Assembly (NCBI GenBank): GCA_944392655.1
Contig: CALXXL010000001.1
Span: 62,001 to 126,000, forward strand
Reading direction: 5' to 3'
Origin: an uncultured Victivallaceae bacterium
GTDB taxonomy: Bacteria > Verrucomicrobiota > Lentisphaeria > Victivallales > Victivallaceae
Length of the DNA: 64,000 nt
The position numbers and the translations under genes were made by a program. Below are positions 25,590-50,808 of this stretch, piece after piece. The notes beneath the pieces were generated by a model. The model had not been told where the DNA came from and ran no database searches. It saw nothing but the letters and a program-made list of their open reading frames with translations. How positions within the stretch are numbered: the stretch's first letter is position 1; each line of letters begins with the position of its first letter.

Positions 25590-26378
25590 ATGAAAGATTT
25601 AGTGGTAAATGTTGAAAATGCGACGGTGCGGGTAAAAGGCCGGGTGATTCTTGATAATCTCAGTTTGCAGATTAAACGTGGTGATCATCATTTTATTCTT
25701 GGAGCGAACGGAGCTGGAAAAACGACTCTGGTCAAGATGCTGATGGGTTTTGTCTGGCCTTTGTACGGGGCAAAGATTGAGATTCTCGGTAAACTGTTCG
25801 GCAATTACAATCTGGCAGATTTAAGGCGGCGCATTGCGTGGGTCAGTCCGTTTTTTCAGCAGTGGGGCAATCATGACAGTACCGGCTTGGATTTGATTAT
25901 CTCCGGAGTGGACGGGACGCTGGATCTATTCCGCAAGCCTACGGATGCTGAAGTTGAAAAGGCCGAATCTATTATGCGTGATTTGCGTTGTTTGCACTTG
26001 CGGGATCAGAACTTATTTACCATGTCAAGCGGAGAGCAGATAAAGATACTTATTGCCAGGGCGTTTATGACCGATCCGGATCTGGTTATCCTTGATGAGC
26101 CAAGCGTCTTTCTTGACATTACCAGTCGTGAATATCTGCTGCGCGAAGTAAGTGAGCTGGCAAAACGGCGTGACGATATCACCATAATATTCATCACTCA
26201 GCGTATTGAAGATATCATGCCGGTTTTCAAGCATGGTTTTATCTTGAGTCATGGCAAAATTGCCGCATCCGGCAGCCGTGAAGAGGTTATTACGCAAGAA
26301 AATCTTCTACAGGCATTTGGAATGCCGATAGATTTCACGATCTCCAAATCAGGCCGTTACTGGCCGGTTATTGAGTAA
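25590..26378 (+). CDS. Orphan ABC ATPase
   Basis: A 262-residue stand-alone nucleotide-binding domain: Walker A LGANGAGKTT, signature variant MSSGEQIKILIARA, Walker B LVILDEPSVFLD, and the switch residue replaced by Gln in IFITQR. It resembles the YlmA/ModF-like group of solo ATPases with no linked permease. The start is ATG 25590; a GTG at 25578 would overlap tyrA. No permease gene is adjacent, so its partner or its role (transport or not) is unknown. Its end overlaps the convergent gene by 22 bases. Confidence 0.85.
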   Translation: MKDLVVNVENATVRVKGRVILDNLSLQIKRGDHHFILGANGAGKTTLVKMLMGFVWPLYGAKIEILGKLFGNYNLADLRRRIAWVSPFFQQWGNHDSTGLDLIISGVDGTLDLFRKPTDAEVEKAESIMRDLRCLHLRDQNLFTMSSGEQIKILIARAFMTDPDLVILDEPSVFLDITSREYLLREVSELAKRRDDITIIFITQRIEDIMPVFKHGFILSHGKIAASGSREEVITQENLLQAFGMPIDFTISKSGRYWPVIE

Positions 26379-27298
26379 ACTGGGAAATCCAGAATCCAGG
26401 CCATTTCGCGGTAATAGCGGAAACGTTTTGCCAGTTTGAGCATCCGTTCCCGGTCTTCCGTGTTGCCGGCTATGACGAAACACTTCGCGTTGGAGGTGAA
26501 GAGTTCGACATAGCCGAGGTGTTTTCCTGCCGCCTGAAGCAATTCAGTCAATTTATGCGGATTGATAAATTGCAGATTCATGGCAACGAAGCCACCGGGG
26601 GCCAGAATTGCTGAAATATGCCGGAAGAAATTTTCGGAATATACCGTTGTAACCGGGTCGCTTCCGGAGAAAATATCGCATAAAATAAAATCATATTTCT
26701 CCTGTTTTTCATCTGATCCGGCAACGAAATCTGCGGCATCGGCATTTACCAGTGTAAAGCGGTCTGCCGGCAGATCGTTGAGAAAATACGGCGACATAAT
26801 TTCAATAGTTTCACGGGAGAGTTCAACTCCTGTTGCCCGGCATTCCGGATATAGGGTTAGCAGGTATCGCGGTATTGCTCCGCCAGCCACTCCAAGAATC
26901 AGGGCATGTTCCGGTGATCGGGTATCAAAATACAGCGGTATAAGAGCGGAAATTCCTTTCAGGTATAATTCCCCATGAGGTTTGTTGTCAAGTGGAATAA
27001 TTGAGCTTATTCCGTAGCGGTGGCGGATTGCCCGCTGGCGCGGCTCCTGCCAGAATTTCAATGGGTAGATGTCTACTATATCCATCGTGGTTCCGTCAAT
27101 TTTACATTGAAATACTTTGCGGGTGAATTTATAGTTCCGCATTATCCATATTCCGGCCGCGATTGCGGGTAAAAGAGCAAAAAATGTTCCTGTTATGGAT
27201 AGTTCACCATAGTAGAAAAGCAATACGGCCATAATCGCATAAAGCAGTATGGTGCCTGTCAAAATATATTTCTTATATCGTCCGAGAAAATTTTTCAT
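26357..27298 (-). CDS. Membrane-anchored spermidine-synthase-like protein
   Basis: Two hydrophobic segments at the N-terminus (about 10-31 and 34-52) anchor a C-terminal Rossmann domain of the spermidine synthase/SAM-methyltransferase fold: ALILGVAGGAIPRYLLTLYP (nucleotide motif), GVELSRETIEI and YDFILCDIFSGSDP. Membrane-linked SpeE-like proteins are common and mostly uncharacterised, and the aminopropyl-acceptor residues cannot be confirmed here. GGAG lies eight bases before the ATG. The 313-residue length includes the anchor. Confidence 0.8.
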   Translation of the reverse strand: MKNFLGRYKKYILTGTILLYAIMAVLLFYYGELSITGTFFALLPAIAAGIWIMRNYKFTRKVFQCKIDGTTMDIVDIYPLKFWQEPRQRAIRHRYGISSIIPLDNKPHGELYLKGISALIPLYFDTRSPEHALILGVAGGAIPRYLLTLYPECRATGVELSRETIEIMSPYFLNDLPADRFTLVNADAADFVAGSDEKQEKYDFILCDIFSGSDPVTTVYSENFFRHISAILAPGGFVAMNLQFINPHKLTELLQAAGKHLGYVELFTSNAKCFVIAGNTEDRERMLKLAKRFRYYREMAWILDFPVYSITGQ

Positions 27299-27673: not shown

Positions 27674-27721
27674 ATGCAGAAATGTAAAAAATCAAAAAAA
27701 ACCGCTTTTTTGGAGCAGAAA

Positions 27722-28879
27722 TCATGGTACAGCCAGGAAACGTTCATCTCCGGCAAAGAGTTTTAACAGTACAATAAGCGAATATGCGCTGGAGCGTGAA
27801 CATGCTCCGCCCCGGCCGTATTCATCCATTCCGCCTTCAAGATACGGATACATACTGGCATTATTTTGTCTGGAAAACAGAGCTTTCAAGGCGCGGCATT
27901 CTGATTCTCCGGTGAAATTATGCGGTACGTTCAGTTTTTCCGCTTCCAGGACGGTATTAAGAACCACCGGAATTCCGGCGCAACTCTGTTCAAAAAATCC
28001 ATCCGGCTGCTGGTCGCGGGCAACGGCTGCGAGAAACTTTTCCGCGCCGTCAAGGAATTTCCGGTCTCCGGTAGCTTTGTAAGCGCATAGAAGTCCCAGA
28101 GATGTAAGGTCGTCATTAGATTTATGCAGTCCGCCCTGCGGGTCGTTTTCTGGTACGCTCATGGTTGCCTTGATAACAGTGCGATAGTAGCCGTCCGGCT
28201 GCTGGACATATTTTAAATAACGTTCAGCAAAAGATACATACCAGTCGCCAATCCATTTCTTATCGCCTGTAGCTTTATAGAGGTGATAAAAGAAATTCAA
28301 GCATCCGCCGTGAAAATCGCCAAGTACATCGTTGCGCATAAGAGCCGAACCATCCCGCCATGGCGGTTCCAGATCTACTCCCCATAAAGGCAGTCCATCT
28401 TCATCCTGACCTTTCCGCATATACCACTCAGCCCACAGCACTGCCCGTTCAAGATACTCTTCTTCCCCGGTGACGCGATAGAAATCGACGAACCCCCATG
28501 CACCGGATAGCCCATCACGCACATAACACCAGGTACTTTGTGGGGTATGTTCGCGCAGTGCTCCGCGATGTTCAGGTATAAACGGGTCGAAGATCTGTAA
28601 ACTCTTCAGGTAAACCCCCATTTTTTGTGCCGCATAAAGATAGCGCTGATCGTCAAACACTTTAGCCGCGCTGAACATGCCCATGGCTGCAAACGCAATG
28701 GCCCATTCAGTCGCGGACAACTGTGGAATGCCAAAAGCGTCATATTCAAAAAAGAAACTTCCGGCTCCGGGTTCCCAGTCCCGGAAGCGGATCTGATTGC
28801 GCAGATAATATTCAGCGATGCCGTGGGCACACTTCATGCCGGCGTCAGAGAGTCCGGCAACATTTTCAATAATACTCAT
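27722..28879 (-). CDS. Alpha/alpha-barrel carbohydrate-locus protein, paralogue 1
   Basis: From ATG 28879 (AGGAG eight bases upstream) it is 385 residues. The chain is a series of helical hairpins with aromatic- and Gly-rich turns (YRVTGEEEYLERA, YKATGDKKWIGDW, YKATGDRKFLDGA), the pattern of (alpha/alpha)6 barrels such as six-hairpin glycosidases, epimerases and unsaturated uronyl hydrolases. Conserved stretches shared with the next gene include GAWGF, GLPLWGV, DPQGGLHKSNDD, FEQSCAGIPVVLN and SSAYxLIVLLKLFAG. No signal peptide is seen, so it probably acts in the cytoplasm. I cannot name the substrate or an established family with confidence. Confidence 0.75.
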   Translation of the reverse strand: MSIIENVAGLSDAGMKCAHGIAEYYLRNQIRFRDWEPGAGSFFFEYDAFGIPQLSATEWAIAFAAMGMFSAAKVFDDQRYLYAAQKMGVYLKSLQIFDPFIPEHRGALREHTPQSTWCYVRDGLSGAWGFVDFYRVTGEEEYLERAVLWAEWYMRKGQDEDGLPLWGVDLEPPWRDGSALMRNDVLGDFHGGCLNFFYHLYKATGDKKWIGDWYVSFAERYLKYVQQPDGYYRTVIKATMSVPENDPQGGLHKSNDDLTSLGLLCAYKATGDRKFLDGAEKFLAAVARDQQPDGFFEQSCAGIPVVLNTVLEAEKLNVPHNFTGESECRALKALFSRQNNASMYPYLEGGMDEYGRGGACSRSSAYSLIVLLKLFAGDERFLAVP

Positions 28880-28901
28880 AATTAAGCTCCTCTCAATGTA
28901 A

Positions 28902-30071
28902 TTATTTTGCCGCCGAGAGGAAGCGGTCTTCCCCGGCAAATAGTTTCAAAAGAACAATTAAGGCGTATGCACTTGAACGCGTGCATACTACGCCGTCGGA
29001 ATATTCATCCAGCGCGCCACGCTTATTCGGGAAGATATCACCCGGATCCTGCCGTTTGTAAAGGGCCCGCAGTGCCTCTGCCGCCTGCTCAAGCCGTGAT
29101 TTGGGCCATGGACCGAGTTCTCCTTCCGACTCCAGAAGGATATTCAGTACCACCGGGATCCCGGCACAGCTCTGTTCAAAAGAGCCGTCTGGACGCTGTA
29201 TAGCGAAAACAGCCTCAATAAAATCGTGAACCGCATCTAGAAAATATTTTTTCCCTGTAACCCGGTAGGCGGCCAGCATGCCGAGAGATGAAAAGTCGTC
29301 GTTAGATTTGTGCAATCCACCCTGAGGATCTTTATCTGGAACTCGCCCGTCAGCTTTGAACACGGTTTTGAAGAATCCATCCGGCTGTTTAGCATTAGCG
29401 ATATAGAATTCAGCAAAATCCTCGAAACGTGAGTCGATATAGCGGCGGTTACCGGTTATCTGGTACATCCGGTAGAAGAAGTTCAGTATGCCGCCGGTAA
29501 AATCACCGAGCATGTCATTGAGCATAGGTGGCGTACCCTCTGAAAGCGGAGGAGCGAATTCAACTCCCCACAAAGGCAGTCCCTGTTGATCAACTCCTTC
29601 GCGGAAGTACCACTCTGTCCACAATTCCGCCCGGCGCAGATATTCCTCATTGCCGGTAACCTGGTAATATTCCAGAAATCCCCATGCCCCGGTTATCGCA
29701 TCCTTAATATAACACCATGGAGTTAACGCAGTCATCTCTCTGATGGCGCCGTAATGTCTTGGCAGATATGAGTCAAATATCTGCAAAGAACGCAGATAAA
29801 AGATCATTTTCTCTGCCGAATAATTGTACAGATCGCAATTGAAAGCCCGTCCGGCGGCCATCTGCCCCATAGCGGCAAAAGCCAGCTGCCAGTTGGTTAC
29901 TCCGCCCGATGGCTGTCCGATAAAGCTTATGGCAGCCGGGAAGCTCCCTGCGGCGTGGATATAATCCTTGTACCTAACCTGATTATTGACATACCATTCA
30001 GCGATTCCTTTTGCGCATTTTAATCCGTCTTTGCGCAGACTTTCCAGTGACTCCACCAAAAGTGACATCAT
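28902..30071 (-). CDS. Alpha/alpha-barrel carbohydrate-locus protein, paralogue 2
   Basis: At 389 residues, this protein is collinear along its whole length with the downstream paralogue and shares the same blocks (AKGIAEWYVNNQVRYKD against AHGIAEYYLRNQIRFRD; GGLHKSNDD; EQSCAGIPVVLN). It was probably made by tandem duplication followed by divergence. It is the first gene of the pair, 22 bases upstream, so the two form an operon pointing away from the divergent regulator gene. It has no signal peptide. ATG 30071 or the adjacent ATG 30068 may start it. Confidence 0.75.
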   Translation of the reverse strand: MMSLLVESLESLRKDGLKCAKGIAEWYVNNQVRYKDYIHAAGSFPAAISFIGQPSGGVTNWQLAFAAMGQMAAGRAFNCDLYNYSAEKMIFYLRSLQIFDSYLPRHYGAIREMTALTPWCYIKDAITGAWGFLEYYQVTGNEEYLRRAELWTEWYFREGVDQQGLPLWGVEFAPPLSEGTPPMLNDMLGDFTGGILNFFYRMYQITGNRRYIDSRFEDFAEFYIANAKQPDGFFKTVFKADGRVPDKDPQGGLHKSNDDFSSLGMLAAYRVTGKKYFLDAVHDFIEAVFAIQRPDGSFEQSCAGIPVVLNILLESEGELGPWPKSRLEQAAEALRALYKRQDPGDIFPNKRGALDEYSDGVVCTRSSAYALIVLLKLFAGEDRFLSAAK

Positions 30072-30095
30072 CCCTCTCCCAGGTATTATTGGTTT

Positions 30096-30154
30096 AGTTA
30101 TACTGTGTTGTTTCAGTTATACCATAACGCCTAATCGGTATAAAACCAGTATAA
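30096..30154. promoter_or_regulatory. Cluster of GTTATAC-type half-sites, probable operator
   Basis: AGTTATAC occurs at 30096-30103 and 30115-30123 (as AGTTATACC), and the inverted form at 30137-30143 (GGTATAA) and 30148-30154 (AGTATAA). The second and third form an inverted pair with a 13-base spacer. They lie between the paralogue pair and the divergent regulator, where an autogenous LacI/GntR-type operator would be. Confidence 0.4.
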
Positions 30155-30221
30155 AAATTATGAAAAATCGTTTTTAATTCATTGACTTTGTTAATGAAAT
30201 AACATTTTTATTTTTTAATGC

Positions 30222-30250
30222 TTGACTTTTATATAAAATTATGTTATCTT
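30222..30250 (+). promoter_or_regulatory. Promoter of the GntR/LacI-hybrid regulator
   Basis: TTGACT (30222-30227), exactly 17 bases, TATCTT (30245-30250) preceded by TGT (extended -10). It overlaps the upstream ATG at 30241, which rules that codon out as a start and supports 30292. Confidence 0.6.
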
Positions 30251-30266
30251 TAAATATAAAACATTT

Positions 30267-30279
30267 ATATAACAAAAGA
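30267..30279 (+). promoter_or_regulatory. Shared leader motif, copy 1
   Basis: ATATAACAAAAGA is found here in the leader of the regulator and again at 31357-31369, ahead of the next gene. Confidence 0.4.
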
Positions 30280-30291
30280 ATAACAAAACCA

Positions 30292-31338
30292 ATGGCGAAA
30301 CTGGAAACATTAATATCGGAAGTTGCGGCAGAGATCTCTCGCGGGGTGTATGGCGGTCCCGGTGATAAGTTTATTACAATAAGAGAGATGTGCATGAAAA
30401 AAGATATATCGCTGAAAACCTCGTTTCTGCTGTTTGCTGCCCTGCGTGATATTGGGGCAATCGAGAAGCGCAGGAAGAGCTATTTTATTCTCGATGGATT
30501 GCAACGACCAGGTATAACAAAGCAAAAACCATTGATCGGCTGCGTGGTCACTGCTTTGGAAAGTCCATATTTCAGTAAATTGGTTCGATATATAGAAGAG
30601 GCGGTAAGCCAATACGGTGCGAGTTTGCTTATTGCGTCAAGTGAATATAATTTTGAGCGTGAAAGAGCGCGGATTACCGGATTTCTGGAGCATGGCGCGT
30701 CCGGCCTGTTGATTTGCCCGTGGGCGAGCGAGGAAGAGGAGAGCTTTTATCGCAATATAGATGTTCCGGTGGTGATGATAGGTCATAAGCCTAAAAGTGT
30801 AGCTGTGGATGCGGTTATGGTGAACAATCAGACTGCGGCGCAGATGGTGGCAGGACATTTGATGGCACGCGGCTGTAAAAATTTTGCTTATATCGGCCAG
30901 CGTGGGGTACAGCGGGATGAGCGCCTGTTCGGATTCCGTTCCCAGCTTTATGCGCATGGGATTATGCTGAACGATAATGATATTGTGATGACAGACTACG
31001 CCAATCAGGAGCAGTGTGACCGCGATATTGTGCAATTGCTGGTGAATCGCCGTCCGGGAACCGGAATTTTCTGTTATCACGATCTGTTTGCCGCCAGGGT
31101 GATAATGCATTGTCACAAATTGAATATAGATGTACCCGGAGATATCAGGGTGGTTGGTTTTGATGATCTGCCTATGGCTTCGGAGCTTTCGCCGGCATTG
31201 ACCACAGTACGCTATCCGATAGAAGCGATGGCGCGGATTGCTTCGGAGATGCTCTATGCCAGGATGACGCTGGAGAATGCCGCCGAACCGGCATATTCAT
31301 ATTTGGATTCTGAACTTGTGGAACGGGAGACAACCTGA
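30292..31338 (+). CDS. GntR/LacI-hybrid transcriptional regulator
   Basis: The N-terminus (about 1-70) is a GntR-type winged helix-turn-helix (FITIREMCMKKDISLKTSFLLFAALRDIGAIEKRR); the remaining 275 residues are a LacI/Peripla_BP_3 sugar-binding domain (GCVVTALESPYFSKLVRYIEE; VGFDDLPMASELSPALTTVRYP). Such hybrids, e.g. AraR of Bacillus, bind a sugar and release DNA. It has a strong promoter, lies divergent to the paralogue pair and directly upstream of the other four genes of this locus. The ligand is unknown. The regulator's own leader contains a motif repeated before the next gene. Confidence 0.9.
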   Translation: MAKLETLISEVAAEISRGVYGGPGDKFITIREMCMKKDISLKTSFLLFAALRDIGAIEKRRKSYFILDGLQRPGITKQKPLIGCVVTALESPYFSKLVRYIEEAVSQYGASLLIASSEYNFERERARITGFLEHGASGLLICPWASEEEESFYRNIDVPVVMIGHKPKSVAVDAVMVNNQTAAQMVAGHLMARGCKNFAYIGQRGVQRDERLFGFRSQLYAHGIMLNDNDIVMTDYANQEQCDRDIVQLLVNRRPGTGIFCYHDLFAARVIMHCHKLNIDVPGDIRVVGFDDLPMASELSPALTTVRYPIEAMARIASEMLYARMTLENAAEPAYSYLDSELVERETT

Positions 31339-31356
31339 GTTCACATATATTTTACA

Positions 31357-31369
31357 ATATAACAAAAGA
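31357..31369 (+). promoter_or_regulatory. Shared leader motif, copy 2
   Basis: The 13 bases ATATAACAAAAGA are identical to 30267-30279. It sits 17 bases before the start of the TIM-barrel-like gene and just upstream of its AGGAG. Confidence 0.4.
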
Positions 31370-31385
31370 CAGGAGATTTTTTAAC

Positions 31386-32417
31386 ATGGCGATTACGCAA
31401 ACCGCGATAAGCTATTATGGCTTGAATTATGTGGAACATGCGGCCGAGGATTTCCGTGAAATGCTGGATCACGGCTGTACCACGGTTATTCTGGCGGTAA
31501 CGGAATTTGACTTTGATTTCTGGCGTCCCAATATTCCTAAGATTGTAGCCAAGGCGCATGAGTTGGGGCTGAAAGTTCTGTTGGATCCGTGGGGGATCGG
31601 CAAATACTTCGGTGGCGAACAGGTGAGCAAATTTCTGCAGAATAATACTGAAAACCGTCAGGTCTCCGCTTTGACGGGTGAAAAACTGCCGTATGCCTGC
31701 TTCAATACCAACAGTTTCCGGGATTATTTTCAGAATATGTGTCTGGCTCTGGGGCGTGAAGCCGGAGCGGACGGTTTCTTTTGGGATGAGCCGCACTACG
31801 CATTTCCCAAATCTTACGCATCAATTACCGGCGGCGCGGGTGAGGATTGGACCTGCCGTTGTCCGGTGTGCATGAAGAAATTTTATGACTATTACGGTTA
31901 TGAAATGCCGAAGGTAATGAATGATGACGTCAAGCAGTTCCGCTGGCGCGAAGCGTTGTTTATTCTTGAAGATACCTCGCGTAAGATCAAGGAGATCAAT
32001 CCGGAGCTTGAAATAACCTGTTGTGTTCATGCCACATTGAACACCTACTATGTTACTGAATATCGTGGGTATGACAATTGGGACATGGTTGCGTCGAGTC
32101 CGTATTTTGACGTTTTTTCCACCACAATTATCGCGTGGGAACTGCCGGAAGGATTTTTTGAAAATATTACCCGTCGTACGGTGGAAATGGCGAAGAAGTA
32201 TGGCAAAAAATCGGAACGCTGGCTGATGGGATACTTTAAACAGCCGAAGGATTTTGAACAGGTTGATAAAGTAGTTGATATGTATGAAAAGCTTGGCGTT
32301 GACCGTCTGGCGGCGTGGACTTACCGCGGCGGCTATGGTACGGTTCTTGCTGCGCCTGATGCGCTGAAGCTGTGGGATAAGATCGGCGAAAATTATAAAC
32401 GGGTATTGAAAAAATAG
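31386..32417 (+). CDS. TIM-barrel-like protein with CxCxxC motif, function unknown
   Basis: A 343-residue cytoplasmic protein with AGGAG ahead of its ATG. Strand-helix alternation and the C-terminal strand LAAWTYRGGYGT fit a glycoside-hydrolase-like TIM barrel. GADGFFWDEPHY places an acidic residue pair where GH barrels often carry a catalytic acid. A WTCRCPVCMKKF segment near residue 158 gives CxCxxC, suggestive of metal binding. I do not recognise a specific family. It starts the four-gene run after the regulator. Confidence 0.75.
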   Translation: MAITQTAISYYGLNYVEHAAEDFREMLDHGCTTVILAVTEFDFDFWRPNIPKIVAKAHELGLKVLLDPWGIGKYFGGEQVSKFLQNNTENRQVSALTGEKLPYACFNTNSFRDYFQNMCLALGREAGADGFFWDEPHYAFPKSYASITGGAGEDWTCRCPVCMKKFYDYYGYEMPKVMNDDVKQFRWREALFILEDTSRKIKEINPELEITCCVHATLNTYYVTEYRGYDNWDMVASSPYFDVFSTTIIAWELPEGFFENITRRTVEMAKKYGKKSERWLMGYFKQPKDFEQVDKVVDMYEKLGVDRLAAWTYRGGYGTVLAAPDALKLWDKIGENYKRVLKK

Positions 32418-32429
32418 GATATTTACAGG

Positions 32430-33188
32430 ATGGAAAAATTTAACGATTTAGGTTATGTCGCTGCTGCTTTTGCCAATATACAGGAGGTATTGGAAAAGCA
32501 GGCGGACAATATCCGTAAGGCCGGGGCACTGATGGCTGATGCAATTGAAGCGGATAAACTTATCAGTGTCTATGGCGGCGGCGGACACACCACTCTGGTT
32601 ATGGGAGAGATGTTCTTCCGGGCCGGAGGCTTGAGCAATATCAACCCGATTATGGAGACCGGGTTGTCGGTCTTCAACCAGTCGCTTAAGTATCTTGAGC
32701 TTGAGCGCTGTGTGAATTACGGTGCTGCGATTATGAAATATTATGATCTTAAAAAGGATGATCTTTTAATAATATTCCATAATATCGGTATAAATGCCGC
32801 GACGATAGATGCAGCGTTGGAGGCGAAGAAGAATGGCGTGAAGATCATTGCTGTATCCAGCTCTTACTGGCAGAATGAGATGCCGGCAGATCACTTTATC
32901 AGACATCCATCCGGCAAAAATCTTTTTGACCTGGCTGATGTGTGCATAGATGACTACAATCCGGTTGGCGACTCCGCAGTAAAAGTGCCTGGGTTTGACA
33001 CTGCAATTGCGCCGATATCCAACGTAGTGGATTTTACTATTGCCCATCTGCTGGAAATAGAGTGTGTGCGTGAATGTGTGGCGCGTGGAATCACACCTCC
33101 GGTATGGCGCAGTGCCAATGCACCGGGCGGGGATGAGTTCAACGCCGCGTTGATAAAGAAATATAAACCATTAATCAAGAATCTGTGA
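32430..33188 (+). CDS. SIS-domain sugar isomerase-type protein
   Basis: The 252-residue protein has a SIS phosphosugar fold: ISVYGGGGHTTLVMGEMFFRAGG near residues 45-68 as the glycine-rich loop, DLLIIFHNIGIN in place of the usual TxSGxT segment, and KIIAVSS before the helix. It resembles the UPF0309-type SIS proteins found with sugar catabolic genes. Such proteins isomerise or bind phosphosugars. It is twelve bases after the TIM-barrel gene and directly before the orphan gene, overlapping its possible GTG start. Confidence 0.82.
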   Translation: MEKFNDLGYVAAAFANIQEVLEKQADNIRKAGALMADAIEADKLISVYGGGGHTTLVMGEMFFRAGGLSNINPIMETGLSVFNQSLKYLELERCVNYGAAIMKYYDLKKDDLLIIFHNIGINAATIDAALEAKKNGVKIIAVSSSYWQNEMPADHFIRHPSGKNLFDLADVCIDDYNPVGDSAVKVPGFDTAIAPISNVVDFTIAHLLEIECVRECVARGITPPVWRSANAPGGDEFNAALIKKYKPLIKNL

Positions 33189-33190
33189 TC

Positions 33191-33901
33191 ATGAATGCAA
33201 AAATGAATGAGGCTCTGGCATTTCTGTCGGAGAAGTACAGTGTGCCGCATGGTGAAATTGTAATGGACGGCGGTCGTTACAAGGTAATTGCTGCCGATGG
33301 TACAGCGACTGCGCTGTTGCCGTGGCGGGTTGAGCGTCGTTTCTTTGAATTGAAGAATCTGATATTGAATAAGACTCTGGAACGTGTTTCTACTCTGCGT
33401 TTTGCCTCTATTACTGCCGGAGGTTCCTTGAAGGAACAATTGGCGCGTGAACTGGATCTGGCGGCATGGATGCTGAATGAAAAGATAATTTCCCTCTATG
33501 CTGTATGCGCAAAAGATGTTGCGGCCAATGTTATTGTAAAATTCGGCAATGATGTCAGCGCCAGTATTGAATGCAGTACAAAACTGCCGGCGGACGGCAG
33601 ACCGATAGACCGGCATGAGATAATTGCCGGACGCGGTATTGCCTCTGACCAGGCGGTTGACACCCAGATTCCGCAATACTCTATTTACGCTTTTACCGAC
33701 AAGGGTGAAGAGCGCTACACCGATGTTGACTCCGAACTTTTCGGGTTCAGCAATGATGAAATATGGATAATCCGTGCGGCGTTTGCGGTATTGAGCAATC
33801 CCGGATTATCGGCGGAATGGAACAGTGCGGAAAAAACCATGAATGAACTGGCTGCGGCGGTATTTGAATCTGACCGCTCAGGTTCGGTAATCAAGTTTTG
33901 A
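33191..33901 (+). CDS. Protein of unknown function in the carbohydrate operon
   Basis: A 236-residue protein starting at ATG 33191; a GTG at 33185 overlapping the previous stop by four bases, or ATG 33197, are alternatives. I see no signal peptide, membrane segment or recognised motif. The middle (NVIVKFGNDVSASIECSTKLP) and RPIDRHEIIAGRGIASDQAVDTQIPQYSIYAF region look alpha/beta and resemble the substrate-facing domain of an oxidoreductase partner. It precedes the Gfo/Idh/MocA gene by 15 bases, so a subunit role is possible but unproven. Confidence 0.65.
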   Translation: MNAKMNEALAFLSEKYSVPHGEIVMDGGRYKVIAADGTATALLPWRVERRFFELKNLILNKTLERVSTLRFASITAGGSLKEQLARELDLAAWMLNEKIISLYAVCAKDVAANVIVKFGNDVSASIECSTKLPADGRPIDRHEIIAGRGIASDQAVDTQIPQYSIYAFTDKGEERYTDVDSELFGFSNDEIWIIRAAFAVLSNPGLSAEWNSAEKTMNELAAAVFESDRSGSVIKF

Positions 33902-33916
33902 TTGGGGGTATGAAAG

Positions 33917-34996
33917 ATGAAACCGGTAAAAATTGCAATGATGTCACTGACCCATGGTCATACCCGCAAATATTATCAGACTTTGCGCGACAACAGTAAG
34001 CTGGACTGGGTTGCATCCTGCGCTGAAGATCAGACGGCGAAAGATGTTTATGAACTCTATAAAACAGGTGTTCCGTGTTATCTGAGCGCGGAAGAGATGT
34101 TTGAAAAGCATCCGGATATTGAGGCGGTAGTGTTGGCTTCGGCCAACAGCAAGCACCTGGAACAGGTTAAATTCTGTGCTGAACGCGGCATCCATATACT
34201 TTCGATGAAGATTCCAACCTTCAATATGGAAGAGTATGATGAGATGATCCGTATTTGCGACAAGGCCGGAATTGTCTGCCAGGTTGAATTGGAAATGCAC
34301 TATAATCCGGTGGTGATCCGGCTTAAGAAGTTGCTTCAGGATGGGGTTATTGGTAAAATATTGTCGGTTCAGGCGACCAATATCACGCTCTCTCCGGTAT
34401 GGGCATTCCCATGGCAGGGGAGTCCGGAAGCCAGCTTTGGCTCCCGTGTTCCGTTAAAGAGTGGAGATGCCCGTTTCCGTGGCGGTGCGTTGTGCGACCA
34501 TCCGCATATCTTCGACCTGGTACGTTGGCTGACCGGTGCGGACTTTAAGACCATCTATTCTGCGGTTGCTCCGAATCTGCGTGAGGATCTGGAGGTTGAG
34601 GATATGCTGCTTGTAAACGGCAAAATGAGTGACGGCACTGCATTTTTGTTTGATCCGTCCTGGTCGCGCATGGAAGAACGGCTCAAGGTTCCCGGTCCTG
34701 GTTGGGAAGTGTTCCCGAAGCGCATGGAGGTAAATCTTACCATTACTGGCGAAAAGGGTGTGCTGGTGTGTGACTGCTTCGGTCCGAATGTCTATCATAA
34801 CGGTGCTCCGAACGACCGTTATACGGTTCAATACACCTATTTTGATGAATGGGTTGGTCTGATAGATGAATTTGTCGATTGTATCCGCAATCACAAGGAG
34901 CCGATGATCAATCTGAAATGGCACAAGCAGACGATAGAGGCGATGAATGCCTGTTATGAAAGTATTGCTGAAGGTTCACCAGTGAAGCTCGGCTGA
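33917..34996 (+). CDS. Gfo/Idh/MocA-family oxidoreductase
   Basis: The 359-residue protein has the N-terminal NAD(P)-binding fold and C-terminal beta-sheet domain of the family. The nucleotide loop reads MMSLTHGHTRKYY instead of GxGxxG, and the usual EKP is replaced by MKIP, features of some subfamilies. CDHPHIFDLVRWLTGA carries the usual D-H-x-x-D-x-x-RW catalytic pattern. It probably oxidises or epimerises a sugar or cyclitol-type substrate; which one is unknown. It ends the operon and is followed by a strong terminator. Confidence 0.88.
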   Translation: MKPVKIAMMSLTHGHTRKYYQTLRDNSKLDWVASCAEDQTAKDVYELYKTGVPCYLSAEEMFEKHPDIEAVVLASANSKHLEQVKFCAERGIHILSMKIPTFNMEEYDEMIRICDKAGIVCQVELEMHYNPVVIRLKKLLQDGVIGKILSVQATNITLSPVWAFPWQGSPEASFGSRVPLKSGDARFRGGALCDHPHIFDLVRWLTGADFKTIYSAVAPNLREDLEVEDMLLVNGKMSDGTAFLFDPSWSRMEERLKVPGPGWEVFPKRMEVNLTITGEKGVLVCDCFGPNVYHNGAPNDRYTVQYTYFDEWVGLIDEFVDCIRNHKEPMINLKWHKQTIEAMNACYESIAEGSPVKLG

Positions 34997-35011: not shown

Positions 35012-35053
35012 AAAACACCTCTTGCGACATTATACCGCAGGAGGTGTTTTTTT
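35012..35053 (+). terminator. Intrinsic terminator of the carbohydrate operon
   Basis: AAAACACCTC (35012-35021) pairs with GAGGTGTTTT (35041-35050), extended by TTGCG/CGCAG, with a nine-base loop and a T-run through 35053. Confidence 0.85.
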
Positions 35054-35067
35054 ATTGCAAGGCTATA

Positions 35068-35102
35068 CAAAAAAAGCCGCTCCATAAAAGAGAGCGGCTT
35101 TT
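35068..35102 (-). terminator. Intrinsic terminator of rpsU (works in both directions)
   Basis: AAAAGCCGCTC (35072-35082) and GAGCGGCTTTT (35092-35102) form an 11-base stem with T-runs on either strand; it lies 14 bases beyond the rpsU stop. Confidence 0.85.
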
Positions 35103-48096: not shown

Positions 48097-50808
48097 ATGG
48101 GCTTGAAAAAGTTATTGCTGGGGGCATTGCTGACGGCCGGATTCTGCGTTACGGCGGCGGAACCTTTGTCGGTCAAGATGTCCAATCTCGGGTTGGAGAT
48201 ATTGTCTAAGGATTTGGGCAATATTTCCATGGGGTCAAGGATTGTAGCGGTGGAACCGCCATGGGTGCAGCTGCGTTTTTACAGCGTGTGGGCGCAACTG
48301 AATTGTATCAATCAGGGCAACACGGCTGAAATGAAGCAGGCGATTGACACTGAGGCTTTCAAGATTATCAACTATTCTGCTGTGGCTGATGGTAATACTG
48401 TTACAGTCAAATTTTCCGGAGAGTTGCGTGAAGATGTGCCGACAGCGGTAGAATACAGTATGTTTGCTGTTCCGGCATTTCTGTTGGCCGGCTCTTCTTA
48501 TACTGTTACCTATTATGATGGTGCAAAATCGAGTGGTACAATTCCGCAGATCGGGGAAAACACCACCAATGCTTTCATCAAACGTGCTCAAAAGGTTGAA
48601 TTTGAGGGTACATATGGTAAATTGACGGTTGAATCTGTAAAAGGACCGTTGTTTGATGTGGTTGACCGTCGTCTTTATACATTTGAAGGAGAAAGCGTAT
48701 TCTGGTTCGGCAAACTTGTGGATGAAAAAGAGCCACTGAAGTTTGGAGAAGTTTATGATTCCGAATTGAAATTTACGTTTGAGCCTACCGGTAATACTAT
48801 TTTTGCGCCTGAACTGGCCAATATCAATGATGGTTTGCCAATGGAGCAGGTGGAAGATGAAAACTTCTATGAAGAGTATGAATTTGATCTTCCGACCTAT
48901 ATGCCGCAGCCGAAAGAGATGGTGGTTTACGGTATTATGGATGAGGCTAAATCATTCAAAGTCGGTAAATTCTCGGAAGATGTCTCTGAAGAGGACCGCG
49001 GTTATCTTTCCAAAGCGATCAACTCCATAGATGATGCCGGGGAAGATGGTGCCCGTCCGGTAAATATTACATTGGTATTGGATGATCCGGCGATGCCGGA
49101 AAGTGAAGAAGGCTATATTTTAACGGTAACTGCTGATGTTGCCTCGATCAGAGCCAAGACTCCGCGCGGAGCATTTTATGCGATTCAGACCTTGAAGGCG
49201 ATGCCTCAGGATGAGATGTATGTTGTCCGTGACTGGCCGGATTTGGGATTGCGCAGCGTGCATCTTCTGGCAGCAGAAGAGACTCCGACATTCCATAAGT
49301 GGATGGTGGAAAATATTTTCTCGCGTTACAAGCTGAATAAGATTATTCTTGAAGTTGAATATGCACAGTGGGATACGACAAAGAATCTGCATCAGCCGCG
49401 CACTGCTACCAAAGACGGGCTGCGTGAATTTGTTCAGGTCTGCCGGGAAAATTACATAGAAGTAATTCCGCTTTTCCAGACATTGGGGCATCTGGAATGG
49501 TTCTTCTACAAGGGGCAAAATCTGGAGATGGCGGAGGATCCAAATGTTCCATACGCTTATAATCCAATGCATCCCGGGGTATATCCGATAATGGATGCGA
49601 TTCTGGAAGAGATTATTGAAATTTTTGATTCCGAATATATTCACATCGGTCATGACGAAGTGGATATGATCGGTCGTTTCCCGAACCGTCCGGAAAATGT
49701 TGAGCGTGGGATAGCCAACGTGGTGTATGATGATATTATGCACTATTACGACTGGGCGAAAGCTCACGGTAAAAAGCTGATGATGTGGCATGACATGATG
49801 CTTTCGAATCAGGAGTGCCCGAATGGTTCCGGTATGCACATCGACAACGTCAAGGAGGCTTTCCGCGATCGTCTGCCGCGTGATATTGTGATTGCCGACT
49901 GGCAGTATTCCGGCAACAAAGCCCATGCTGAATACAAAGATGTAAAACTTCTGATGGATGAAGGCTTTGAAGTTATCGGCTGTACCTGGTATGAAACTGA
50001 CAATGTTGAGAACTTCACCAAAGCGATCAAGAAGTATGGTGCATTGGGCATGATGGGTACCACATGGACTGGATATTTCTCCGGTTGGAACTCATTTGAT
50101 GAACATTTCCATCAGATGGCCACCTATCCGCGGGTTGGCGCCTGGGCTTGGACGGTAACGGATGACAATTACGCGTTTGGCAATTATCATGAAGTGCTTG
50201 CCGATATTCTTATGAAGAAAGCGCCGTGGAGCAGTGAAGAAGACGACACTGCGTCGGAAGGCCGGCTGGTCAACCTGAACAAGGTAGTCAATCTTGCGCT
50301 TCCGGAGAACTGCAATGTATTTTTGGCCAATACAGATTTTGGTTTACCGTCCGCGCTTACTCCTGGAAAGGTGATGCGTGCCGGCAGTGCTGACTTCCTG
50401 ATTCCGGAGCGTGATGGGGAATTGGCCGTGATTGGTATCAAGTCGCGTCAGAATGCCAATCTGCCCGACAGCGTATCCATAAAATTGGATACCAAGGCAG
50501 AAAAGCTCTATTTGTTGCATTCGCATATCGGTCCGAGCGTGCCTAATTTTGACCAGGAGATTGCCCGGCTGAAGCTGGTCTATGCCGATGGGACATCGGA
50601 AGAGCTTCCGTTGATATTCGGGCGCAATATTGGTTCATTCAAGGGAGAAGCCAGCAAGAACCTGACCAGAGCCAATGTGCTGGTCACTCCGGAAGGAAGA
50701 ATCTGGTATACTGTCTGGGACAATCCGCATCCGGATAAAGAGATTGCGTCGCTTGATATTATTTCAAGCATCATGCCTTACTATCTCTTCGGGCTCAGCT
50801 TGCAGTAA
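48097..50808 (+). CDS. Secreted GH20-type beta-N-acetylhexosaminidase-like protein
   Basis: From ATG 48097 (AGGA nine bases upstream; the upstream ATG 48037 has no signal peptide) the 903-residue protein starts with a signal peptide (MGLKKLLLGALLTAGFCVTAA). A GH20b-type N-terminal domain is followed by the catalytic barrel (about 395-720), with the acid/polariser pair D520-E521 in HIGHDEVDM. GH20 enzymes remove terminal N-acetylhexosamine from glycans. The substrate is not visible in sequence. A strong terminator follows. Confidence 0.88.
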   Translation: MGLKKLLLGALLTAGFCVTAAEPLSVKMSNLGLEILSKDLGNISMGSRIVAVEPPWVQLRFYSVWAQLNCINQGNTAEMKQAIDTEAFKIINYSAVADGNTVTVKFSGELREDVPTAVEYSMFAVPAFLLAGSSYTVTYYDGAKSSGTIPQIGENTTNAFIKRAQKVEFEGTYGKLTVESVKGPLFDVVDRRLYTFEGESVFWFGKLVDEKEPLKFGEVYDSELKFTFEPTGNTIFAPELANINDGLPMEQVEDENFYEEYEFDLPTYMPQPKEMVVYGIMDEAKSFKVGKFSEDVSEEDRGYLSKAINSIDDAGEDGARPVNITLVLDDPAMPESEEGYILTVTADVASIRAKTPRGAFYAIQTLKAMPQDEMYVVRDWPDLGLRSVHLLAAEETPTFHKWMVENIFSRYKLNKIILEVEYAQWDTTKNLHQPRTATKDGLREFVQVCRENYIEVIPLFQTLGHLEWFFYKGQNLEMAEDPNVPYAYNPMHPGVYPIMDAILEEIIEIFDSEYIHIGHDEVDMIGRFPNRPENVERGIANVVYDDIMHYYDWAKAHGKKLMMWHDMMLSNQECPNGSGMHIDNVKEAFRDRLPRDIVIADWQYSGNKAHAEYKDVKLLMDEGFEVIGCTWYETDNVENFTKAIKKYGALGMMGTTWTGYFSGWNSFDEHFHQMATYPRVGAWAWTVTDDNYAFGNYHEVLADILMKKAPWSSEEDDTASEGRLVNLNKVVNLALPENCNVFLANTDFGLPSALTPGKVMRAGSADFLIPERDGELAVIGIKSRQNANLPDSVSIKLDTKAEKLYLLHSHIGPSVPNFDQEIARLKLVYADGTSEELPLIFGRNIGSFKGEASKNLTRANVLVTPEGRIWYTVWDNPHPDKEIASLDIISSIMPYYLFGLSLQ

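Follow-up and report, generated by a model that had tools for sequence, protein, structure and literature searches.

The question raised by this 64,000-nucleotide stretch of contig CALXXL010000001.1 from an uncultured Victivallaceae bacterium (hereafter the window, taken from a genome of 2.34 Mb in 37 contigs) is which of the carbohydrate-related genes between positions 27722 and 34996 belong together, and on what kind of sugar they act. A preliminary description, made from the letters alone, had claimed a self-contained locus of seven open reading frames (ORFs), all of which are present and open. The real unit is a conserved, uncharacterised operon of five genes, Reg–Tim–Sis1–Orf–Moc (30241–34996), which excludes the adjoining pair of barrel genes; the label "self-contained" fits the operon and fails for the pair. 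We propose, at about an even chance, that the operon is induced by a sugar and that its products break down, in the cytoplasm, an unphosphorylated 2-acetamido-2-deoxy sugar or a short glycoside of such a sugar. Its newness is that of known kinds of enzyme, varied and set in a new combination. The features are as follows.

30241–31338, plus strand: Reg, a regulator with a helix-turn-helix-like N-terminal part (GntR-like by eye, no Pfam match) and a LacI/Peripla_BP_3 sensor
31386–32417, plus strand: Tim, a 343-residue TIM-barrel protein, glycoside-hydrolase-like, with D134-E135 after strand beta4 and C157, C159 and C162
32430–33188, plus strand: Sis1, a NagS-family SIS protein
33185–33901, plus strand: Orf, the former "orphan", a homologue of the Gfo/Idh/MocA C-terminal domain without a Rossmann domain; 4-bp overlap with the end of sis1
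33917–34996, plus strand: Moc, a Gfo/Idh/MocA oxidoreductase with invariant K98 and H197
35018–35050, plus strand: terminator-like stem-loop and T-run with a long loop, the operon end, read by eye
28902–30071, minus strand: BarB, an alpha/alpha-toroid protein; a neighbour outside the conserved module
27722–28879, minus strand: BarA, a paralogue of BarB; likewise a neighbour outside the module

Gene content, cross-phylum synteny, the coupling of Tim to SIS genes, residue conservation and loss, and folds were computed. Tim was used as a query against 84,980 species genomes, which gave 147 relatives; the best 80 were used as related loci, and these were compared by clustering all of their ORFs. 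Across these best 80 loci, which span Lentisphaerota, Kiritimatiellota, Verrucomicrobiota, Bacillota, Planctomycetota, and Spirochaetota, Tim is 76–89% identical over essentially its full length. In the 49 loci whose flanks extend at least 2.5 kb ahead of Tim and 6 kb beyond it, to which the synteny counts are limited, the same-strand genes near Tim are Sis (43), Moc (36), Orf (31), a GH20-like gene (27), and a GH89/NAGLU-like gene (11). Co-occurrence was counted over 61 related genomes, where Tim is found in 19 and a Sis1-type SIS in 16, all 16 of which also carry Tim (Fisher p 5e-12). Distant Tim homologues (44–48%) in loci L134 and L135 have a direct SIS neighbour (46–48%), and because both genes are held there without Orf and Moc, Tim–Sis is the minimal pair. 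In the Tim tree, Bacillota fall mostly together and Kiritimatiellota are nested in Lentisphaerota with starred support, which fits with transfer among bacteria of the gut and of digesters, though bins can mislead. The window genome itself is placed by its relatives as a lentisphaerote near Victivallaceae. The literature on UPF0309, on Rossmann-less Gfo partners, and on Lentisphaerota clusters yielded nothing on the module, which apparently has never been studied before, in agreement with its earlier labelling as uncharacterised. Another candidate for comparison, the Bacteroides caccae pathway for chondroitin (PMC12269599), proved to be a different system.

A clue to the substrate comes from Sis1, a PRK02947 "sugar isomerase domain" protein (NF002805; 226 bits, above the curated cut-off of 135), whose only relatives of solved structure found by sequence are 3cvj and NagS (SCO4393; phmmer E 1e-27 for the latter). 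NagS of Streptomyces is an N-acetylglucosamine-6-phosphate (GlcNAc-6-phosphate) dehydratase that forms 6P-chromogen I; its H53, R64, E94, and D179 are essential, N228 and S91 are important, and the phosphate is held by S54, S119, and S121 (PMC12680351). With these roles taken from the cited study and the Sis1 positions read from the alignment to 9eol, Sis1 has H53, R64, E92, D181, and N230 at the positions of NagS H53, R64, E94, D179, and N228, whereas T54, L89, H117, and I119 stand where NagS has S54, S91, S119, and S121. This pattern, in which the catalytic set is kept and the phosphate-site serines become T, H, and I, is found in 62/62 copies of the related loci, and the sugar contact S91 is likewise replaced in every copy. 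By alignment, Sis1 is thus assigned to the same SIS subfamily as NagS and not filed as NagS itself, because the phosphate-binding serines are replaced throughout; unlike NagS, it is also encoded in a catabolic operon with a glycoside hydrolase (GH)-like protein and a dehydrogenase. Beta-elimination chemistry on a 2-acetamido sugar is also known from a further SIS-fold system. That system is related to NagS (PMC12680351) and differs in acting on a phosphosugar.

A second SIS type, about 30% identical, occurs in some loci and keeps all four NagS serines in 15/16 copies. A gene for a PfkB or FGGY sugar kinase, for which the queries were drawn from the same related loci, lies near the second SIS in 16 of the 18 loci that carry it; among the other 61 of the 79 loci covered, no homologue of these kinases was found (p 7e-15), other kinase types not being excluded. 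Since one branch keeps the serines and is linked to a kinase and the other has lost them, the two are most simply read as using different substrates, the second SIS a phosphosugar and the window-type Sis1 an unphosphorylated sugar. G001, the other genome from the window organism's genus, has in its Tim locus (L132, 3173–9460) the genes Tim–Orf–Moc but no Sis1; just upstream lie a SIS of the phosphate type and a sugar kinase of the FGGY family, as if they stood in for Sis1.

Tim itself, which the preliminary description could not place in any nameable family, retains that status by sequence: Pfam, NCBIfam, PDB phmmer, and PDB profile searches gave no family or sequence match, and its homologues give only weak GHL/DUF4434 profile matches. 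The AlphaFold2 (AF2) model, built with 55 relatives, is a TIM barrel (pLDDT 83, pTM 0.87) whose Foldseek matches are glycoside-hydrolase barrels, namely Cwp19 of Clostridioides difficile, GH35, GH164, GH42, PgaB, and lacto-N-biosidase. Cwp19, GH35, GH42, GH164, and PgaB share the fold (E 5e-11 to about 1e-8, TM 0.6–0.67), but at 10–13% identity, and Tim differs in being a small, single-domain protein without an evident signal peptide. D134-E135 follows directly after strand beta4 (130–133) and is invariant in an alignment reaching 27% identity, and the three cysteines are invariant among close relatives. An adjacent acidic pair after beta4 is used by substrate-assisted hexosaminidases such as GH20. 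Like the GH20 beta-N-acetylhexosaminidases, Tim has its adjacent D-E pair after beta4, but its sequence matches neither GH20 nor any further GH family; the analogy with a hexosaminidase-like catalytic pair is suggestive only.

Moc and Orf form the second half of the operon. The SIS and Gfo/Idh/MocA assignments of the preliminary description are confirmed by Pfam and NCBIfam profile matches: Moc reaches PF01408 and PF02894 above cut-off, corresponding to the Rossmann N-terminal domain and the C-terminal alpha/beta domain, and gives weak NCBIfam matches to disaccharide and glycoside 3-dehydrogenases. Orf (238 residues) had been called an orphan, a label that is overturned by profile, AF2, and Foldseek: it has no PF01408 match, its model (pLDDT 89.7) opens with helix-strand-strand and continues as the C-terminal domain, and the Foldseek matches listed are Gfo/Idh/MocA-type dehydrogenases (E 1e-10, probability 1.00). 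A profile alignment, weak on its own, joins Orf 55–238 with Moc 135–358 end to end. Among the known members of the superfamily, such as inositol dehydrogenases, DgpA2, GenD2, and KanD2, Moc is a full member and Orf has the C-terminal fold; Orf differs from these dehydrogenases in having no NAD-binding Rossmann domain and in that its gene lies immediately upstream of one for a full-length partner.

Orf stands directly before Moc in 39/45 loci, and in six loci without Orf another Rossmann-less protein (cluster 13; profile against Orf, probability 89%, E 2e-6) stands directly before a divergent Gfo/Idh/MocA gene. The gene order and domain content point to a two-subunit enzyme, putatively formed by Orf and Moc. 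The cluster 13 proteins (in L015, L016, L022, L027, L028, and L035, with L027 being Victivallis vadensis) are a very divergent, second type of Rossmann-less Gfo-like protein. The most conserved stretch of Orf, residues about 144–166 (window 33612–33682; consensus DRHEIIARRGVACDRVVDTQVPQ), is the lowest-confidence part of the AF2 model, which suggests a loop that becomes ordered when a partner or ligand binds. A 387-residue Orf-containing ORF in L140 was rejected as evidence of a Rossmann domain; its extra N-terminus is arginine/serine-rich, lies at the place of sis1, and is probably a shifted reading of that gene.

The Tim, Sis1, Orf, and Moc genes are tightly packed, with gaps of 12, −4, and 15 bp, and the closing terminator of the preliminary description is seen by eye as a stem-loop, AACACCTC...GAGGTGTT, followed by a T-run, near 35018–35050, its loop being too long for the terminator scan. 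The scan places a minus-strand terminator of the next gene at 35102–35072, convergent with this stem-loop. A Reg homologue precedes Tim in many related loci. The reading of Reg as a GntR/LacI hybrid stands for its strong LacI-type sensor domain and falls short at the N-terminus, which has no Pfam GntR match; one relative reaches E 0.08, and L010 carries a different regulator, clearly GntR. The ORFs of the locus include neither a transporter, as the preliminary description had noted, nor a sugar kinase.

The hints about the substrate class lie beside Tim in the relatives. The GH20-like neighbour has matches among GH20 enzymes of solved structure (E 2e-27); the D-E pair of its H-x-G-C-D-E motif is intact in 33/37 copies, the remaining branch of four having D-K. 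That branch (L055, L064, L067, and L078), which possibly has a changed activity, lies beside a GH113-like gene and mostly also an AAC(3)-type acetyltransferase gene. For the NAGLU-like neighbour there is a match to PF05089 (1e-18), and two of its Glu residues are invariant, which we take to fit GH89. Occasional neighbours of Tim are GH113, GNAT and AAC(3)-type acetyltransferases, AGE epimerases, MFS transporters, and a sulfatase. A 2-acetamido sugar is favoured because of these neighbour genes together with the SIS family. In the window genome, the 11 GH20 matches in 2.3 Mb suggest a strong hexosamine-glycan diet, and one of them lies at window positions 49279–49980 within a 928-residue open frame.

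From this evidence we infer a substrate class, an order of steps, an association of Orf with Moc, and a ligand of the regulator. An imported oligosaccharide would be cut by Tim and, in many relatives, also by the co-encoded GH20- or GH89-type hexosaminidase; Sis1 would open the free reducing sugar and then enolise or dehydrate it as NagS does GlcNAc-6-phosphate, with no need of the 6-phosphate; and Moc, with Orf as its Rossmann-less partner subunit, would perform an NAD(P)-dependent redox step. The intracellular processing of an aminosugar-type product, put forward in the preliminary description, gains support from these results. An improbable but far-reaching extension is that Sis1 would be the first SIS enzyme to catalyse an elimination of the NagS/MurQ type whose substrate is a free, unphosphorylated 2-acetamido sugar or else the reducing-end residue of a 3-linked disaccharide (enzymatic "peeling").

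Several observations weigh against the proposal. Neither SIS type lies near Tim in 11/79 loci, some through a contig end, and Tim has, as judged by sequence, no recognisable catalytic family. The window locus lacks a GH20 or GH89 gene of its own; elsewhere in the genome there are 11 and 2 matches. Moreover, nagA and nagB are almost universal in relatives, and both are present in the window genome; the module was therefore rejected as a nagA/nagB substitute, and, since the GlcNAc route is already given by these genes, it must serve something else. For NagS itself, the phosphate-site serines are not catalytically crucial, which calls for caution, and the homologues assayed in the same study, at about 26–36% identity to NagS, showed no meaningful GlcNAc-6P dehydratase activity (PMC12680351), so that the SIS family alone fixes neither reaction nor substrate.

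The lost serines could also mean that another acidic group replaces the phosphate, as in a 6-sulfated N-acetylhexosamine or an aminouronate, with H117 and T54 of Sis1 binding the sulfate or carboxylate; the His fixed in place of Ser in 62/62 copies resembles a switch of ligand rather than decay, and in L030 Tim has a sulfatase gene nearby (PF00884, E 1e-62), but a sulfatase is no recurrent neighbour, no uronate enzyme recurs, and Ile in place of Ser121 does not help to bind an anion, so we consider this rather unlikely. If, instead, the pathway began at the other end of the operon, Moc and Orf would first act at C3 of a plant or secondary-metabolite glycoside by oxidation and beta-elimination, as in DgpABC and the glycoside 3-dehydrogenases, with Sis1 and Tim acting later and the hexosaminidases incidental. 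The Foldseek matches of Orf do include DgpA2 and a glucuronide-3-dehydrogenase, the Moc profile matches the DgpA and DgpA2 structures, and the weak 3-dehydrogenase matches of Moc point the same way; yet matches of both kinds are generic to the superfamily, Tim–Sis pairs occur without Moc and Orf, and the GH20-like gene accompanies Tim in 27 of the 49 loci, which leaves this route distinctly improbable. Equally doubtful is ordinary scavenging without new chemistry, in which Tim would be a plain glycosidase, Sis1 a plain ketol-isomerase, and Moc an inositol-type dehydrogenase: all of the folds are well known and the SIS and Gfo/Idh/MocA families are broad, but Sis1 keeps the essential NagS dehydratase set, beyond an isomerase fold, and the identity of Tim across phyla suggests a specific conserved task.

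The preliminary description had placed BarA and BarB within the locus, and as hydrolases or epimerases they would then feed the module. The two proteins are paralogues (52% identity), and the divergent arrangement described earlier is real, with 169 bp shared between BarB and Reg. However, barrel homologues occur in 19/61 relatives, and 5 of these 19 also carry Tim, where chance would give 5.9 (Fisher p 0.80); in G001, Tim and the barrels sit on different contigs, each with unrelated neighbours; and tblastn found no barrel homologue near Tim in the 80 related loci. On these three grounds the barrels were rejected as members, their part in the pathway is highly improbable, and they are a separate unit; dispersal in relatives, which the preliminary description had named as the mark of an ordinary locus, is true of the barrels and untrue of Tim–Sis–Orf–Moc.

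The signals for the barrels are those of an alpha/alpha-toroid and are all weak or short. Members of the family match GH127, C5-epimerase, and GH88, and a PDB search with the family profile gave weak matches to LanC, cellobiose 2-epimerase, GH76, and unsaturated glucuronyl hydrolase. The GH127 score of BarA is 28 against a gathering threshold of 24.9 bits, with a best stretch of just 41 residues, BarB is below the threshold, and neither matches PF07221 (AGE/cellobiose 2-epimerase). Among the invariant residues are E112 and D124 as well as an H254-x-x-N-D-D motif. Terminator-like sites lie 3' of BarA at 27718–27702 and 27540–27521, and a membrane-anchored, spermidine-synthase-like protein of methyltransferase fold adjoins the pair (window 26357–27298, minus strand). 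In L109 (10541–11788) and L114 (10383–11651), a family of about 415 residues adjoins single BarA/B homologues, the L109 member having no Pfam match.

Within the SIS family, the loss of the phosphate site in the Sis1 branch, together with its retention in the kinase-linked branch, amounts to a sharp substrate prediction. If elimination on a free 2-acetamido sugar were true, the operon would encode an amino-sugar pathway that needs no phosphorylation: Tim would provide the substrate, and the product would pass to the two-subunit enzyme of Moc and Orf. If it acts as proposed, a dehydrogenase gene paired with a separate copy of its C-terminal domain would make for a two-subunit organisation that is unusual among Gfo/Idh/MocA enzymes. 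Tim is nearly unchanged in gut, rumen, and anaerobic-digester bacteria of several phyla, and because it is so widespread and matches no sequence family, an undescribed step of carbohydrate use in such communities is likely.

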